DNA from: a virus
Strand: one strand, 5' to 3'
IMG/VR virus record: IMGVR_UViG_3300048589_001616
Location: 1 to 29,512 of that record
Length of the DNA stretch: 29,512 bases
Both the position numbers and the translations under genes were made by a program. The notes below the pieces were generated by a model. That model was given only the letters and a program-made list of their open reading frames with translations, had not been told where the DNA came from and did not search any database. Position 1 is the first letter of the stretch. Each line of letters opens with the position of its first letter. This document shows, in pieces, positions 1,487 through 29,311 of the stretch.

Positions 1487-2130
1487 GAGATGTGCTGCCC
1501 CGCAAACACAGCGCAATAGCTGCCCACATCCCACAACCCCCCATTGGCGTTGATCTCTATGCGATCGATAGCCGCCTGCTGGTGCCATACGGCATGGCCA
1601 GAGACGTTGTAGTGCGAGCTGCCACCTGCGCCCTTGTAGTGCCCGCTCTGCATAATTACGCTCTTGTAGTAATCAGGATTGCTGTAGCGCGGGATGGTCA
1701 GCTGCAGCACGCCGTAACCCAGCGCCCCGGGGGTTGCATGGCTGCTTTGCACTTCGAGGCCCGCCCCAAACAGCGATGTCTGCGTGCTGCCACCTGTGCC
1801 CGATACGGTGGTGGTGGTAGCGCGAATGAGGTTGTACGAATAGTTGGATCCAGTATCGCTGTTGAAGCGGATGATGCCAAAATCTTGCACCGCTCCGGTG
1901 TAGGTGGAGCGCAGATAGGCAACCACGTGCAGGCTTTCGTATCCTTGCGGGATATTGGGGAGATTAAAGTTGGAGGGCGTCACCAGCGGCGCAATGTAGC
2001 CAGCCTTGGCATCCCAAACGCCCAGGTTGTCGTACAAAAATTGCGGGTTATCCACCATCAACTGATTAGCCAGCACCAGCGTGAGCGGATCACCATTGTT
2101 AAATGCACTCGGGTTTACCCAAATTGCCAT
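1483..2130 (-). CDS. Beta-rich tail fibre or receptor-binding candidate
   Basis: The protein is 215 residues and starts at an ATG directly after the TAG of the upstream tail gene, with GAGGTG six bases before it. It is rich in Ser, Thr, Gly, Asn and Tyr, with many short strand-like segments and almost no charged helices (NYSYNLIRATTTTVSGTGG, GVLQLTIPRYSNPDYYKSV). That composition is typical of trimeric fibre heads and lectin-like receptor-binding domains. It follows the large tail-tip gene, the usual place for a host-recognition protein. No specific family is recognised, so the receptor-binding role is an inference. Confidence 0.5.
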   Translation of the reverse strand: MAIWVNPSAFNNGDPLTLVLANQLMVDNPQFLYDNLGVWDAKAGYIAPLVTPSNFNLPNIPQGYESLHVVAYLRSTYTGAVQDFGIIRFNSDTGSNYSYNLIRATTTTVSGTGGSTQTSLFGAGLEVQSSHATPGALGYGVLQLTIPRYSNPDYYKSVIMQSGHYKGAGGSSHYNVSGHAVWHQQAAIDRIEINANGGLWDVGSYCAVFAGQHIS

Positions 2131-11060: not shown

Positions 11061-12242
11061 TTACCTCCGTCGCTTCTTCTTGCTTTTCTTGCTCTCGCGC
11101 TCAATGCGTGCTTCCAGCGCGCTCAGCACCGGCTTCCAATAGTTCTCTGTCACCACGTCTGCGTCATACGCCAGCGCACCTTCACGGGCTTGCTTACCCA
11201 TGCCCGCCGCTTTCTCATAGGCCTCGCCCAGTGCGTCCGCAATGGCTTCGGGGCGAGCGGCGTACTGCATTGCGCCCAGCACAGTCCAAACTTTGTGCGC
11301 CTCGCCTTTGGGGATCTTCCATCCCTCAAAACACAGCTCGCCCATTGATGTCCAGTCACCAACGATCACCGGCGTTCCACAGGCTTGCGCCTCCAAAATC
11401 GGGATGCCAAAGCCCTCGCCCATGCTCACCAGCAAATGCACATCCATCGCGTTGTAGGCGGCCACCATGTAGTCACTGGGAAAGCCGATGAGCAGGTTGT
11501 ATTGGTTGGGGAAGCCGTAATCCTTGCCTTCCTTCAGCCCCAAGTGCGCCAGGTACTCCGGCAGGTTCACGCCCTCGTACTCGCCGTTCTCGCTGCGGGC
11601 GGTGTGCAGGTACAGCCACGCGTCTTTGCGCTTCTGCTTCAGCATGGCAAAGGCTTCCAGGTTCTCGATAAACGCCTTGCGACTCGGATTACCCTTGTTG
11701 GCCGCCACCATGCCGACAATGAACTTGTCTTTCGGCCAGCCCAGCCGCTGCAGCAACTCAGCTTTGGGAGTGTCCAGCGGCTTGAACACATCACTCTCGA
11801 CACCATGCGGAACGTAGTAGCAATCCAGCCCGGCCTCATGCGTCATCTGCTCGCCAAACTTGCTGTAGACAATGCGGGCGTAGGCTTGCTCTACCTTCTG
11901 CTTCAGCAGCGGAGGCAGCGGCTGTTGGTCCACCGGATACCAGGGCGCCCAGCGCACCTTACCGTATAGCTGCGGCTCACACACCCACGCATCCATCAGC
12001 GAGATCATCAAGTCCGCGCCGCTTTGCGCGGCATTGGCGGCCATCATGTCTTGTCCATACGGGTGATGCCCGCGCGGGAATACTTGCATGCCCTGCCAAT
12101 TCAGCATGCCGCCATCCAACCCCCAGAACGAGGTCAGCGACACCTCATGCCCCAGCGCCTTGATGCGCGGAGCGAATATCTTCGTTTGGTTGGCGTAGCC
12201 CGTGGAAGCCCAGGGGGCGTTGCTCACGATGTGCAGCTTCAT
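11061..12242 (-). CDS. Family 4-like (GT-B) glycosyltransferase
   Basis: The protein is 393 residues, the usual length of GT4 enzymes. The N-terminal domain begins MKLHIVSNAPWASTGYANQT, where the Gly-Tyr loop contacts the acceptor. The C-terminal donor domain has IVGMVAANKGNPSRK and the signature EGFGIPILEAQACGTPVI at about 276-293. That signature contains the E-x7-E pair that binds the nucleotide-sugar. A Lys/Arg-rich tail (SKKSKKKRRR) follows. It is the first and largest enzyme of the cassette and overlaps the gene upstream by four bases. Confidence 0.85.
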   Translation of the reverse strand: MKLHIVSNAPWASTGYANQTKIFAPRIKALGHEVSLTSFWGLDGGMLNWQGMQVFPRGHHPYGQDMMAANAAQSGADLMISLMDAWVCEPQLYGKVRWAPWYPVDQQPLPPLLKQKVEQAYARIVYSKFGEQMTHEAGLDCYYVPHGVESDVFKPLDTPKAELLQRLGWPKDKFIVGMVAANKGNPSRKAFIENLEAFAMLKQKRKDAWLYLHTARSENGEYEGVNLPEYLAHLGLKEGKDYGFPNQYNLLIGFPSDYMVAAYNAMDVHLLVSMGEGFGIPILEAQACGTPVIVGDWTSMGELCFEGWKIPKGEAHKVWTVLGAMQYAARPEAIADALGEAYEKAAGMGKQAREGALAYDADVVTENYWKPVLSALEARIERESKKSKKKRRR

Positions 12243-23024: not shown

Positions 23025-23716
23025 TTCTTTTTCCATCCTCCGCGACCAGGCGTTACAGGATCGGCAATGGCAACAGATTTGCGTATCCACCAGTTGCCCC
23101 ACTTCACAGCCTTCACTTGCCCGCGCGCAATTCTCTGATGCAGAAGTCCATCGCAAACGCGGTGATGCCTGGCGTACATACCGCCAGACCACCACTCATC
23201 ACCCCAACGGTCATGCACCAAATCGATCAGGCGGGCATATCCGGCGTGGGGAATTAGCCTGCGTTTTTTGTGTACGTCAAAAAGAAAGTAAATAAAGTTT
23301 TCGGGGTTGATGACCCAGCGTCTAAACTGGCTGGAGTGGATTCGCCGTTTGTCGTTACCGCGCCCCACGCGCAAACCAGGCACGCGCTCAAACTTCAGAA
23401 CACCCTCGCGCTCCAAGCGCATGATGGCGTGAACGTCTACGCCAAGAATGTCAGCCACTTCGTTACGCGAGTAGTAGTCCTTGTGCTTGCCCGGTGCAGT
23501 CAAACCTCGGCGCACCCAACGAACTTTGATTGCATTCTCGCTGCGCCCCAGCGCCACGGCAATTTCAGAAACGGGCTTTACGCCCAGGTTTGCTCTCAGG
23601 TATTCGGTTTCCTCGGTAGTCCACCGGCGCCGCCCAGCACCCAGCCCAAACAGCAGCTTTCCGCGCTGCGAGGTTGCCTGTTCCACCGACTGGGCGACAA
23701 GAGTATCCAGGCTCAC
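23021..23716 (-). CDS. DNA-binding protein with Myb-like and MerR-like motifs
   Basis: I start at GTG 23716, which overlaps the ParB stop as GTGA and has a G-rich site before it; this gives 231 residues. The region RRRWTTEETEYLRANLGVKP and then VSEIAVALGRSENAIKVRWV is a SANT/Myb-type helix-turn-helix with a Trp. SRNEVADILGVDVHAIMRLE is a second, MerR/excisionase-like helix-turn-helix. The rest is basic and rich in Trp and His. It is likely a regulator or recombination directionality factor, and partner genes in the window do not decide which. Confidence 0.6.
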   Translation of the reverse strand: MSLDTLVAQSVEQATSQRGKLLFGLGAGRRRWTTEETEYLRANLGVKPVSEIAVALGRSENAIKVRWVRRGLTAPGKHKDYYSRNEVADILGVDVHAIMRLEREGVLKFERVPGLRVGRGNDKRRIHSSQFRRWVINPENFIYFLFDVHKKRRLIPHAGYARLIDLVHDRWGDEWWSGGMYARHHRVCDGLLHQRIARGQVKAVKWGNWWIRKSVAIADPVTPGRGGWKKK

Positions 23717-24561
23717 TTCGCCCCCACCATATTGACGATAAGCTGCACAGCCGGACACGCCCCGCAAATCTGATCTGATGGGTTTTCGCTCCAATCACAT
23801 GCGGCGCAGGTGGCCTTCGCGCCGGTCTTGACGGCATCCCAAGAAGGCAACTTGCCAGCCCTTCGCAGTTGCTCCCACGCCGGAACATTGCGCGGCCCCT
23901 TCTTGCGCTCGGCATAATGAATTGCAGGGGTTTCGCCTTTCGGGGGCTTTTCCCCTTCAAGCTTCGCAACCAGCGTTTTGCAAGCCGCCTGGATAGCAGG
24001 GATGCTGGCTTTGCGCTGCACAAGGGCAATCGCAATCTTCACCCTGGCGGCAGAATCAGGAACGGATAGCAGTGCATCGATCACGCGCTCGTCTTTTTGA
24101 AGCATCCTGGCAGCAAACAATTCGAGAATTTCTGGCTCTAAATTCAGCATCTTCAGACGCGCGCTCACACGCGGCAACGAAGCTCCAGTCTCAATTTGAA
24201 TTCGGTTCACCGACCACCCGAATTCATCCCGCAAACGAGCAAAGGCTCGCGCTTCGTCTACAACATTCATGTCTTCACGCTGAATGTTGGCCACCAACGC
24301 ATCGGCAAGGCGAGTTTCCTTGCCGGCCTTCTGACGAACAACGGCTTCAATTTGCCTTAGCCCGGCCAACTTGGCAGCCCGCCACCTGCGCTCACCATCA
24401 ACCAGGCAATACTCGCCAGCCTTGACCTCTTCGACAATCACGGGCTGGATGAGTCCGCGCTTCTTGATAGAAGCGGCCAATTCAGCCAGGCCAGCCTCGT
24501 CAAAGGATTTGCGCGGTTGCTCGGGATTTGGCTTTATCTGCCCAATGTCAATTAGCGTCAT
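23713..24561 (-). CDS. ParB-like protein with C-terminal zinc-finger-like tail
   Basis: The protein is 282 residues from ATG 24561, overlapping the loader stop as ATGA. The ParB/Spo0J N-terminal CTPase-type domain is clear: KPNPEQPRKSFDEAGLAELA, then YCLVDGERRWRAAKLAGL (about 51-68), then NIQREDMNVVDEARAFARL. A helix-turn-helix follows (FGWSVNRIQIETGASLPRVS). The last 60 residues carry CAACDWSENPSDQICGACP, two Cx2C-type pairs. No ParA is present nearby, so partition of a plasmid-like prophage is possible but unproven. A regulatory role on phage DNA is equally possible. Confidence 0.8.
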   Translation of the reverse strand: MTLIDIGQIKPNPEQPRKSFDEAGLAELAASIKKRGLIQPVIVEEVKAGEYCLVDGERRWRAAKLAGLRQIEAVVRQKAGKETRLADALVANIQREDMNVVDEARAFARLRDEFGWSVNRIQIETGASLPRVSARLKMLNLEPEILELFAARMLQKDERVIDALLSVPDSAARVKIAIALVQRKASIPAIQAACKTLVAKLEGEKPPKGETPAIHYAERKKGPRNVPAWEQLRRAGKLPSWDAVKTGAKATCAACDWSENPSDQICGACPAVQLIVNMVGAK

Positions 24562-25247
24562 TTCCACTCCATCGCCGGGCGCATATCCACCCCGTCCAGC
24601 TTCACAACAAGGCACCGGCCATCAAATATCCGCGAGGCCAGATAAGCGTCAATCTCTTGCGGGTCGCGGTTGCTGGCAAAAACAGTCATCCCTAGCTTGC
24701 GCTCAATGTTCATGCTGTAGCGCGCGTCGATCAGCGCAAAACGTTTCTCTGCGGTGAACTCGGTGTCGCGCGCCTTCTCAAACTCGTCAATTGCCAGGAA
24801 CGGGGCGTTCTGCCACCGCTCCATGCGCGTTTCGGCGGTTTCGCGCTTGTCCACATACTCCCCATACACCGCGCGCAGGTTCTCCAATATCTTTGACATG
24901 CTGGTGTAGGTGGCGTCAAACTTCGCCTCCAAAAGCTGGCGCACGATGATCTTCAACGCCACAGATTTCGCTTGACCAGGCCCACCCCAAAAGAACGCCC
25001 AGCCATACCCGCGAGAAACCAGCTCGTCTGCGGCAGCTTTCATGCGCTGCACACCAGGCACAGCTTTCAAGTCATCCCACGTTACGCGGTCTTCGGGGTA
25101 GATGCCGCGCCGCTCAAAGTCGTACAGCTTTGTGGCTTCAATCTCAGGGCAGGGGAACAGCTTCCCAAAGTCAGCGTGTCCAATGGGGACTTCGCGACGG
25201 ATGAAGCCGGCGCCGGAGCAGGTGGGGCAATTCGGGGCGCAGGTCAT
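24558..25247 (-). CDS. DnaC-like AAA+ helicase loader
   Basis: The protein is 229 residues. Cysteines at 3, 7, 10 and 33 (NCPTC near the start) look like an N-terminal zinc site. Walker A is GGPGQAKS at about 88-95, a normal variant for DnaC/DnaI loaders. Walker B is FLAIDEF at about 150-156. SNRDPQEIDAYLASRIFDGR carries the sensor region with an Arg finger. It should place the replicative helicase at the origin. It lies between the initiator (upstream) and ParB (downstream) with four-base overlaps. Confidence 0.85.
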   Translation of the reverse strand: MTCAPNCPTCSGAGFIRREVPIGHADFGKLFPCPEIEATKLYDFERRGIYPEDRVTWDDLKAVPGVQRMKAAADELVSRGYGWAFFWGGPGQAKSVALKIIVRQLLEAKFDATYTSMSKILENLRAVYGEYVDKRETAETRMERWQNAPFLAIDEFEKARDTEFTAEKRFALIDARYSMNIERKLGMTVFASNRDPQEIDAYLASRIFDGRCLVVKLDGVDMRPAMEWK

Positions 25248-28141: not shown

Positions 28142-28365
28142 GCCGGCACCCCCGCAGGCTTAGACTTGAACAAATCCAGCACACTTACTCCCGTGTGATG
28201 TTTGGGGCAGTATTCGTAACGCGCGTTGTGCTTGCCCAGCATCACCGCCCAGCCTTTGGAGCGCAGCCAGTTATCCAGCTTGGCTGGGTTGCCAGAGTCG
28301 GCGGCGATCAACGTGGCCGGGCAGCCTGGCTCATCGCAACTGATGTGCACTTGTGGGATACGCAT
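28138..28365 (-). CDS. Small zinc-ribbon-like protein
   Basis: The protein is 75 residues. It has HISCDEPGCPATLIAADSGN at the start and RYEYCPKHHTGVS later, giving a Cx4C and a Cx2H-type pair suited to zinc. The middle (KLDNWLRSKGWAVMLGKHN) reads as helix-strand. Such small phage zinc proteins are frequent in early regions but rarely characterised. Confidence 0.6.
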   Translation of the reverse strand: MRIPQVHISCDEPGCPATLIAADSGNPAKLDNWLRSKGWAVMLGKHNARYEYCPKHHTGVSVLDLFKSKPAGVPA

Positions 28366-28367
28366 CC

Positions 28368-28580
28368 CTAAATACCTGCAATCAGAAACGCCGCAAAGCA
28401 GCCTTGGGAGCAGAACTGATAAGTACGGATACGGCGGCGAGAATGCTTATCAACCTGCCACTTCGGAGGAGCGACCCACCCCAAGCGAGTGGCGCTCTCA
28501 ATCAAAATATGGCGCCTGTCCGAGACTTCCTCGTTACAGTTATCACAGAAGTACCGATTGATCACTTGTTGCCTACGCAT
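28368..28580 (-). CDS. Small zinc-ribbon-like protein
   Basis: The protein is 70 residues from ATG 28580, with AAAGGAG four bases before it; a longer open frame to 28640 runs into the folded RNA. It begins MRRQQVINRYFCDNCNEEVS, and later YQFCSQGCFAAFL. Two Cx2C/Cx3C pairs make a zinc ribbon likely. It is the first gene after the large structured RNA, so the RNA may influence its expression. Confidence 0.65.
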   Translation of the reverse strand: MRRQQVINRYFCDNCNEEVSDRRHILIESATRLGWVAPPKWQVDKHSRRRIRTYQFCSQGCFAAFLIAGI

Positions 28581-28603
28581 TGCTGCTCCTTTCTTTTTGC
28601 CGC

Positions 28604-29003
28604 ATTGGTGAGTTGTGGAGTTGGCGGCCAGGTCGCTCACGGAATCCTCAACGCCATTGCTTTGGCGGCCATGCCCTCACTGCGCCAACTCCACAACTCA
28701 CCATGTAAAAGTTCCGAATGACTGGCCCAGAGAAAGCCCCGATTACAGCCAGCACCACACGGGACGGGCCAAATGGATTTAGGCCAAAAGCCAGTGACGC
28801 ACCTTCCCGAACGCCCCACCGGTTTCCCGTCCTCTGAGCCAGTCATTCGGGCAGGAGCGCGATGCAGGACTGCTGCCACCGCGCTCCTGCCACTCAGAAG
28901 GAGAAGTTCTGCGTTTACCAGACGCAGAGTTCGCTGGACTAGCCCAGGTGAGGGGGGCACCCGTGCTAATCCGGCGAGGTCTGCGCCCGGACTCCTTCTG
29001 ATG
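28604..29003 (-). ncRNA. Large structured RNA of about 400 bases (unassigned)
   Basis: No supported gene lies between 28581 and 29014. Instead four consecutive domains fold: A 28894-29001 (ten pairs closing three hairpins), B 28850-28891 (eleven to twelve GC-rich pairs with a small inner hairpin), C 28714-28850 (nineteen to twenty-one pairs with inner helices), and D 28606-28703 (twenty-one perfect pairs over a 56-base loop). Inside the helices five non-Watson-Crick positions are G.U on the minus strand and would be A.C on the plus strand. That supports an RNA read in the gene direction. It resembles no RNA family I can name. Confidence 0.7.
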
Positions 29004-29014
29004 ATGTAAAGGTG

Positions 29015-29311
29015 CTACTCGTGCTTTTCGAGACGTTTTTCCAGAGCATCCATGCGCAGCCAGAGTGCCTTCAAGTCATCTTGCAGGGCTTCTCGCACTC
29101 CCTCGACAACGCTCTCAAACCCCTCGGCCAGGGTGCGAACTGCAACCTCAGACAACCCCGTGGCCTTTGCAGCCTTGGCGACGTCCTCGTCAAAGTCCTC
29201 GGTACCAGGAGACAGCCAAATGTAAACATCGCTGCCCTCCTCCTCGGGGATGCCCCAGTGGGTGGTGCCGATTGAATCCAAGCTCATTTCCACTTCAATA
29301 ACTGTTTTCAC
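29015..29311 (-). CDS. Acidic hypothetical protein
   Basis: The protein is 98 residues with a GTG start (AGGA about eight bases before it), placed one codon after the previous stop. It is acidic, with DVYIWLSPGTEDFDEDVAKA, then GLSEVAVRTLAEGFESVVEG, and ends in a helix LWLRMDALEKRLEKHE that may be a coiled coil. It is the last gene before the large structured RNA. Function unknown. Confidence 0.55.
   Translation of the reverse strand: MKTVIEVEMSLDSIGTTHWGIPEEEGSDVYIWLSPGTEDFDEDVAKAAKATGLSEVAVRTLAEGFESVVEGVREALQDDLKALWLRMDALEKRLEKHE

Follow-up and report, generated by a model that had tools for sequence, protein, structure and literature searches.

A conserved pseudoknotted RNA found between the genes of scattered bacterial viruses

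The window analyzed here is the whole 29,512-nucleotide stretch of DNA at positions 1 to 29,512 of IMG/VR virus record IMGVR_UViG_3300048589_001616. Between two small genes lie about 400 bases in which four adjacent hairpin domains, A to D, can be drawn (Table 1). The location of this stretch in an early region is plausible, judged solely from its position beside replication-type genes. The three open reading frames 28637-28960(-), 28773-29009(+) and 28353-28721(+) have no match in Pfam or PHROGs, in keeping with the original prediction that no credible gene lies here. Elsewhere in the window, the phage also encodes a ParB-domain protein (23713-24615, Pfam 8e-28) and a group 1 glycosyltransferase (11061-12242, 1.8e-10).

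Table 1. Positions of the RNA features and flanking genes in the window.
Feature	Position	Strand	Evidence or remark
Upstream gene, 98 aa	29015-29311	(-), same direction as RNA	ends 14 bases before domain A
Domain A, stable branched hairpin	28894-29001	(-)	z -7.2; window only
Domain B, stable hairpin	28850-28891	(-)	inverted repeat, z -6.6; window only
Domain C, conserved RNA, compact form with 40-nt variable insert	28714-28850	(-)	BLAST, motif scans, alignment
P1 5′ strand, closing stem, 21 pairs	28830-28850	(-)	21 nt uninterrupted; sequence different in every member
P2 5′ strand CGGG	28826-28829	(-)	CGGG:CCCG in some members, AGGG:CCCU in others
Conserved AAA after P2 5′ strand	28823-28825	(-)	
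P3 5′ strand CCGGU (pseudoknot)	28818-28822	(-)	CCAGU or CCAGC in other members
Variable insert between P3 and P2′	28778-28817	(-)	40 nt here, 45-134 nt in other members
P2 3′ strand CCCG	28765-28768	(-)	alignment, covariation
Near-invariant 26-nt block	28738-28763	(-)	P4 5′ strand, UGNGGU, P3 3′ strand, CYGUAAU, P4 3′ strand
P4 5′ strand CCCG	28760-28763	(-)	
UGNGGU	28754-28759	(-)	
P3 3′ strand GCUGG, within P4 hairpin loop	28749-28753	(-)	100% of cells paired
CYGUAAU	28742-28748	(-)	
P4 3′ strand CGGG	28738-28741	(-)	
P1 3′ strand, closing stem	28714-28734	(-)	inverted repeat
Domain D, hairpin with perfect 21-bp stem	28606-28703	(-)	inverted repeat, z -6.0; window only
Downstream gene, 70 aa, start 28580	28368-28580	(-), same direction as RNA	sub-threshold zinc-finger match; AAAGGAG before ATG

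The predicted minimum free energy of the minus strand over 28580-29020 is -230.2 kcal/mol, as compared with -173.8 ± 6.9 for 100 dinucleotide shuffles (z -8.15), none of which is as stable as the native sequence. All four domains of the original prediction are recovered in this fold at the coordinates proposed for them. Each domain folded alone on the minus strand is also more stable than its shuffles (Table 1; z -4.8 for C). Domains D, C and B have stems that form adjacent inverted repeats, at 28606-28626/28683-28703 (21 nt, 100%), 28714-28732/28832-28850 (19 nt, 95%) and 28850-28864/28877-28891 (15 nt, 93%); in the list of inverted repeats for the whole 29.5 kb window, these three come first. 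The plus strand of 28580-29020 reaches -201.0 kcal/mol (z -6.46), 29 kcal/mol weaker than the minus strand, and its best fold has 6 G.U pairs, as compared with 17 in the minus-strand fold. The latter include the wobble pairs that had been named as signs of strand: 28727/28837, 28733/28831, 28793/28820, 28939/28969 and 28946/28962.

A search with the full stretch against 50,697 phage records gave a single match, 38 nt inside domain C, to Moorella phage MTATph1 (BLAST, 89.5% identity, E 7e-4). The match falls between genes, and has its own long closing stem. The annotation of MTATph1 places a 47-aa hypothetical protein, CDS0146 (L005:1487-1630), across the RNA core; this open reading frame is probably spurious. 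Weak BLAST matches in Aeromonas, Staphylococcus, Gordonia and Microbacterium phages were rejected, since they lie inside annotated genes and have E-values of 2 to 8. No relative of the full 400-base stretch was found among plasmids or in 50 terminase-related records.

Motif scans of IMG/VR with the shared 3′ motif extended the family to 12 members: domain C, the MTATph1 locus (L005) and ten loci in IMG/VR contigs (L089-L095, L097, L123 and L124; L096 is a repeat of L092). The members share the motif CNCGTGNGGTRCTGGCYGTAATCGNG, and the upstream block is usually GGGAAACCAGT. Relaxing the pattern by one base in P3, or at P3 plus one P4 pair, yielded no further true members. A wider relaxation of P4 yielded exactly two, L123 and L124, and both have compensated P4 pairs. 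Other pattern matches were judged to be due to chance: L098-L102 in genome contigs, L103-L108 in IMG/VR, and L120-L122, L125 and L126. One of these chance matches, L102 (around 1653-1673, minus strand), lies in a Cytophagales MAG, in an apparently hairpin-rich noncoding stretch.

The carriers are a dozen otherwise unrelated bacterial viruses with a scattered distribution, and each has one copy of the RNA. Among 31 phage records related by terminase, no credible family member was found, and hence the RNA is dispensable. The terminase route, which covered 80 loci, likewise yielded no credible RNA; the sole match with two mismatches, G045, is in an apparently coding stretch and lacks the 5′ block. 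Protein-based searches for relatives of the 70-aa neighbor and of the helicase found nothing. When 84,980 bacterial and archaeal genomes were scanned, the motif was matched five times; none of these matches continues as the motif requires, and they are regarded as due to chance.

The elements follow one another in this order: P1, an optional small hairpin, the P2 strand NGGG, AAA, the P3 strand CCAGY, an insert of 40-134 nt, P2′ (CCCN), the P4 strand CNCG, UGNGGU, P3′ (RCUGG), CYGUAAU, P4′ (CGNG) and P1′. The conserved unit is ~130-230 nt long. The core is a pseudoknot, because P3 crosses both P2 and P4. The nested fold drawn within domain C in the original prediction is not the conserved one; the pseudoknot of the family is beyond the reach of nested folding programs. 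The unpaired core bases AAA, UGNGGU and CYGUAAU hardly vary between unrelated phages, with the qualification that all 12 sequences were recovered via the same 3′ motif, so that the search itself accounts for part of this motif's invariance. L091 is a poorer fit, with GGAGAACCAGT as its 5′ block and P2 unpaired as aligned. An additional helix directly after P3, P5, can be read by eye in most members; we rejected it since its per-sequence support is no better than chance. The long members L005, L089, L092, L094, L097 and L123 have in common a hairpin loop of approximately GAUGAGAGG; in L093 and L095, the loop is shorter and reads GGAGG.

Base changes between members support the stems P1, P2 and P4. 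We aligned 58 columns of stem and core segments, leaving out the variable insert and choosing the P1 window of each member by hand. In this alignment, 95.2% of the cells are paired, as compared with 74.7% in shuffles and 34-48% with the partners slid. There are 56 cells with two-sided changes, as compared with 17.9 in shuffles (0 of 500), and the covariation score is 0.580, as compared with 0.158. Two-sided changes occur at all eight P1 pairs of the alignment. P2 is compensated from CGGG:CCCG to AGGG:CCCU, and P4 from CCCG:CGGG to CGCG:CGCG in L123 and to CUCG:CGAG in L124. Because the P1 windows were hand-chosen, P1 was also tested separately by swapping flanks: the longest flank helix has a mean length of 12.0 in the true members and 6.7 with flanks swapped, and none of 20,000 permutations was as good.

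P3, which covariance models leave unscored as they do all pseudoknots, is paired in all 12 members. Its last pair is U-G, U-A or C-G, and changes from the commonest pair are one-sided only; the occurrence of U-A in some members and C-G in others is suggestive. The pair is U.G in 9 of the 12 members, and the opposite strand would give A.C. Hence, the strand of the RNA is fixed. With compensatory changes in the stems and no conserved reading frame, the original proposal of a functional RNA transcribed in the same direction as the genes is borne out for domain C.

The same cannot be said of a single 400-base, four-domain RNA, since only domain C recurs in other phages. Domains A, B and D have no counterparts in the 11 other family members, which leaves their membership in one molecule with C putative.

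Rfam contains nothing similar. There is no gathering-level match in the window to any of 4227 families, and at E-values up to 5, the region 28500-29120 matches only microRNA families and one lncRNA. No match was found at relaxed E-values for the loci of the other members, or at gathering level for the Moorella locus. The models of GOLLD and ROOL are unmatched, consistent with the original prediction, in which neither class was recognized, and so are those of OLE, HEARO, HDV-like ribozymes, and group I and group II introns. The RNase P models are unmatched even at E up to 5. In the papers that we found in an open-access library, there is no description of anything similar to the domain C RNA and no mention of MTATph1. 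We consider it almost certain that the conserved RNAs form a real class. This class of structured phage RNAs has not been described before, and domain C represents it in the window phage.

Where the direction of the neighboring genes is clear, the RNA has the same orientation as those genes. Based on mechanical ORF calls, members sit between ORFs or tRNAs, and the types of neighbor vary: an SbcD-like nuclease, structural-type genes, HNH genes and a small zinc-finger-like protein. L124 lies in a tRNA cluster, flanked by tRNA-Met and tRNA-Asn, both of which have its orientation. In L093, a tRNA begins ~50 nt after the core. ARAGORN calls it tRNA-Stop (L139:12460-12549, IMGVR_UViG_3300031754_000005), a possible suppressor tRNA. 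The core of L097 is ~670 nt after tRNA-Cys. In L092 and L094, P1 runs into a T tract, resembling an intrinsic terminator. All-against-all BLASTP of the ORFs in the carrier contigs found no protein family common to all 12 carriers; the most widely shared, whose motif suggests a DNA methyltransferase, is present in five. Hence, the RNA needs no phage protein shared by all carriers.

In three phages, the RNA is directly adjoined by a gene for an HNH endonuclease of 101-160 aa (contigs L110, L115 and L117, which carry L089, L094 and L097). Two of these proteins match Pfam, HNH at 2.8e-10 and HNH_5 at 9.4e-10, and the third matches PHROGs HNH at 1.8e-7. No IscB-type neighbor with RuvC and HNH parts was found; the matches are of HNH type only. 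In each of the three contigs, which are 47-79 kb long, the neighbor is the sole HNH protein with a Cys-Cys-DH-Cys-Cys (Cys4-type) pattern. With 61-149 called genes per contig, the chance of three of four such HNH genes adjoining the RNA is ~2.6e-5, a figure to be read with the knowledge that the adjacency was noticed post hoc and concerns three phages only. The HNH gene is downstream of the RNA in two of the phages and upstream in the third. The window has no HNH-type pattern. Searches for an empty site in two members did not find relatives of the flanks.

How might these features be explained? The near-unchanging core, the scattered phages that carry it, the homing neighbors and the place in a tRNA cluster together indicate selection for a specific function in infection. 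We propose a new class of accessory phage RNA that acts in trans and is spread by HNH homing, and we give this reading as a whole a probability of about 0.5. The RNA is considered independent because of the T tracts that follow P1 in L092 and L094, and because L124 and L093 are located beside tRNAs. It would be a small RNA transcribed as part of an operon or tRNA cluster, with P1 holding its two ends together, as is seen in other stable RNAs. During lytic infection, it would act in trans by presenting its invariant pocket to some host component that is conserved widely, and would most likely block or divert a host process or defense. We suggest tentatively, at slightly less than even odds, that the RNA acts in trans by binding a host component and is neither a ribozyme nor a switch. 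We lean a little more towards than away from its mobilization by HNH homing. By analogy, it may be a passenger gene, moved between phages by HNH homing endonucleases inserted alongside, like those that accompany phage tRNA genes. A more sweeping picture, of an anti-defense or takeover RNA gene that is a protein-free pseudoknot, catalytic or host-targeting, passed on by HNH endonucleases and absent from the sampled cellular genomes, seems to us doubtful.

The idea of host mimicry was dropped: E. coli genomes contain no match to the core, and its likeness to the 530 loop of 16S rRNA scored 7, as compared with 15.8 ± 3.1 for shuffles.

The best-surviving alternative is that the RNA represents a new ribozyme class. 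By self-cleavage or some other catalysis, it would process its own transcript, for example to free neighboring tRNAs, and the invariant unpaired bases would be its active site. Such bases around a compact pseudoknot, with covarying short stems and freely variable outer parts, are what known ribozymes look like. The scattered distribution fits, as do the tRNA neighbors of L124 and L093, given that HDV-like theta ribozymes sit beside phage tRNAs (PMC10879173). However, most members have no adjoining tRNA, the Rfam ribozyme families are unmatched, the topology is unlike the HDV double pseudoknot, and there is no conserved base at a fixed distance outside the core that could mark a cleavage site. 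We consider catalysis rather unlikely.

It is less likely again that the RNA is a structural part of a mobile element, such that RNA and HNH gene form an intron-like or bypass-like homing unit with no role for the phage. Nine of the 12 members have no HNH neighbor, the HNH gene changes sides, and there are no conserved element ends beyond P1. Moreover, the element lies between genes rather than within one in the contexts that we read, and the group I and group II intron models are unmatched. In favor of a homing unit are the HNH genes that directly adjoin the RNA in three phages, whose contigs have none elsewhere, and the scattered distribution with no credible member among the terminase relatives.

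A cis-acting regulator of the downstream gene, such as a riboswitch, leader or terminator-type element, is improbable. The RNA often follows closely on a stop codon and precedes the next gene, and P1 followed by a T tract in L092 and L094 could terminate transcription, but the downstream genes are unrelated (an SbcD-like nuclease, a 70-aa protein, a structural-type gene, an HNH gene and a tRNA), and a switch in a tRNA cluster makes no sense.

Lastly, a conserved short peptide or DNA site in place of an RNA is largely refuted. A single frame is open through the core; its translation in most members is PSR-x-VLAVI, and two of the variable bases fall at third codon positions. In L092, L093 and L124, however, this frame is stopped 3-5 codons upstream, with no intervening start. 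The spacing of the two conserved blocks can be 0, 1 or 2 modulo 3, such that their relative frame is not kept, and the two-sided changes in P1, P2 and P4 and the U.G pairs in P3 fit RNA. The conserved core is untranslated.

We return to the proposed accessory RNA acting in trans. If it binds a host factor or defense protein, it would be an addition to the few RNA-based weapons of phages. If it is catalytic instead, it would be a new ribozyme. MTATph1, which carries one member (region 131,179-131,369, minus strand), has been isolated and sequenced, and its host is named (Moorella thermoacetica), so the question can be addressed experimentally.

Several known systems resemble this RNA in part. 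In the catalytic domain of RNase P RNA, the ends are paired by P1 and another helix forms a pseudoknot by crossing P2, with a consensus ACAGAA-type block before the crossing helix. The domain C RNA has the paired ends and the crossing helix, a likeness that we regard only as a lead, and differs in having an extra P4 helix and no ACAGAA-type block. The HEARO RNA, or omega RNA of IscB, is a structured RNA that adjoins an HNH nuclease gene and also occurs without the nuclease. The domain C RNA can likewise be found beside an HNH nuclease gene, whereas its neighbors are proteins of 101-160 aa with matches of HNH or endonuclease VII type only, and no guide is apparent. Theta ribozymes are also pseudoknotted phage RNAs with tRNA neighbors (PMC10879173); in contrast to their double pseudoknot, P4 of the domain C RNA encloses the 3′ strand of P3, and no cleavage site was identified.

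The homing endonuclease SegB co-localizes with phage tRNAs and amplifies anti-defense loci (PMC13096335). Here, too, a homing endonuclease is inserted alongside an accessory RNA gene, but the endonuclease is HNH instead of SegB, the RNA is no tRNA, and it has no known link to a defense system. GOLLD and ROOL are large, ornate phage RNAs of unknown function that are often near tRNA genes (PMC12286853). The ROOL RNA studied in that work is 659 nt long, and many GOLLD RNAs are longer than 800 nt. The domain C RNA, at ~130-230 nt, is far smaller, has another core, and was not found here in bacterial genomes; like GOLLD and ROOL, it is an accessory phage RNA near tRNAs. Thus, the RNA class is new, and the wider sort to which it belongs, accessory phage RNAs near tRNAs such as GOLLD and ROOL, is known.
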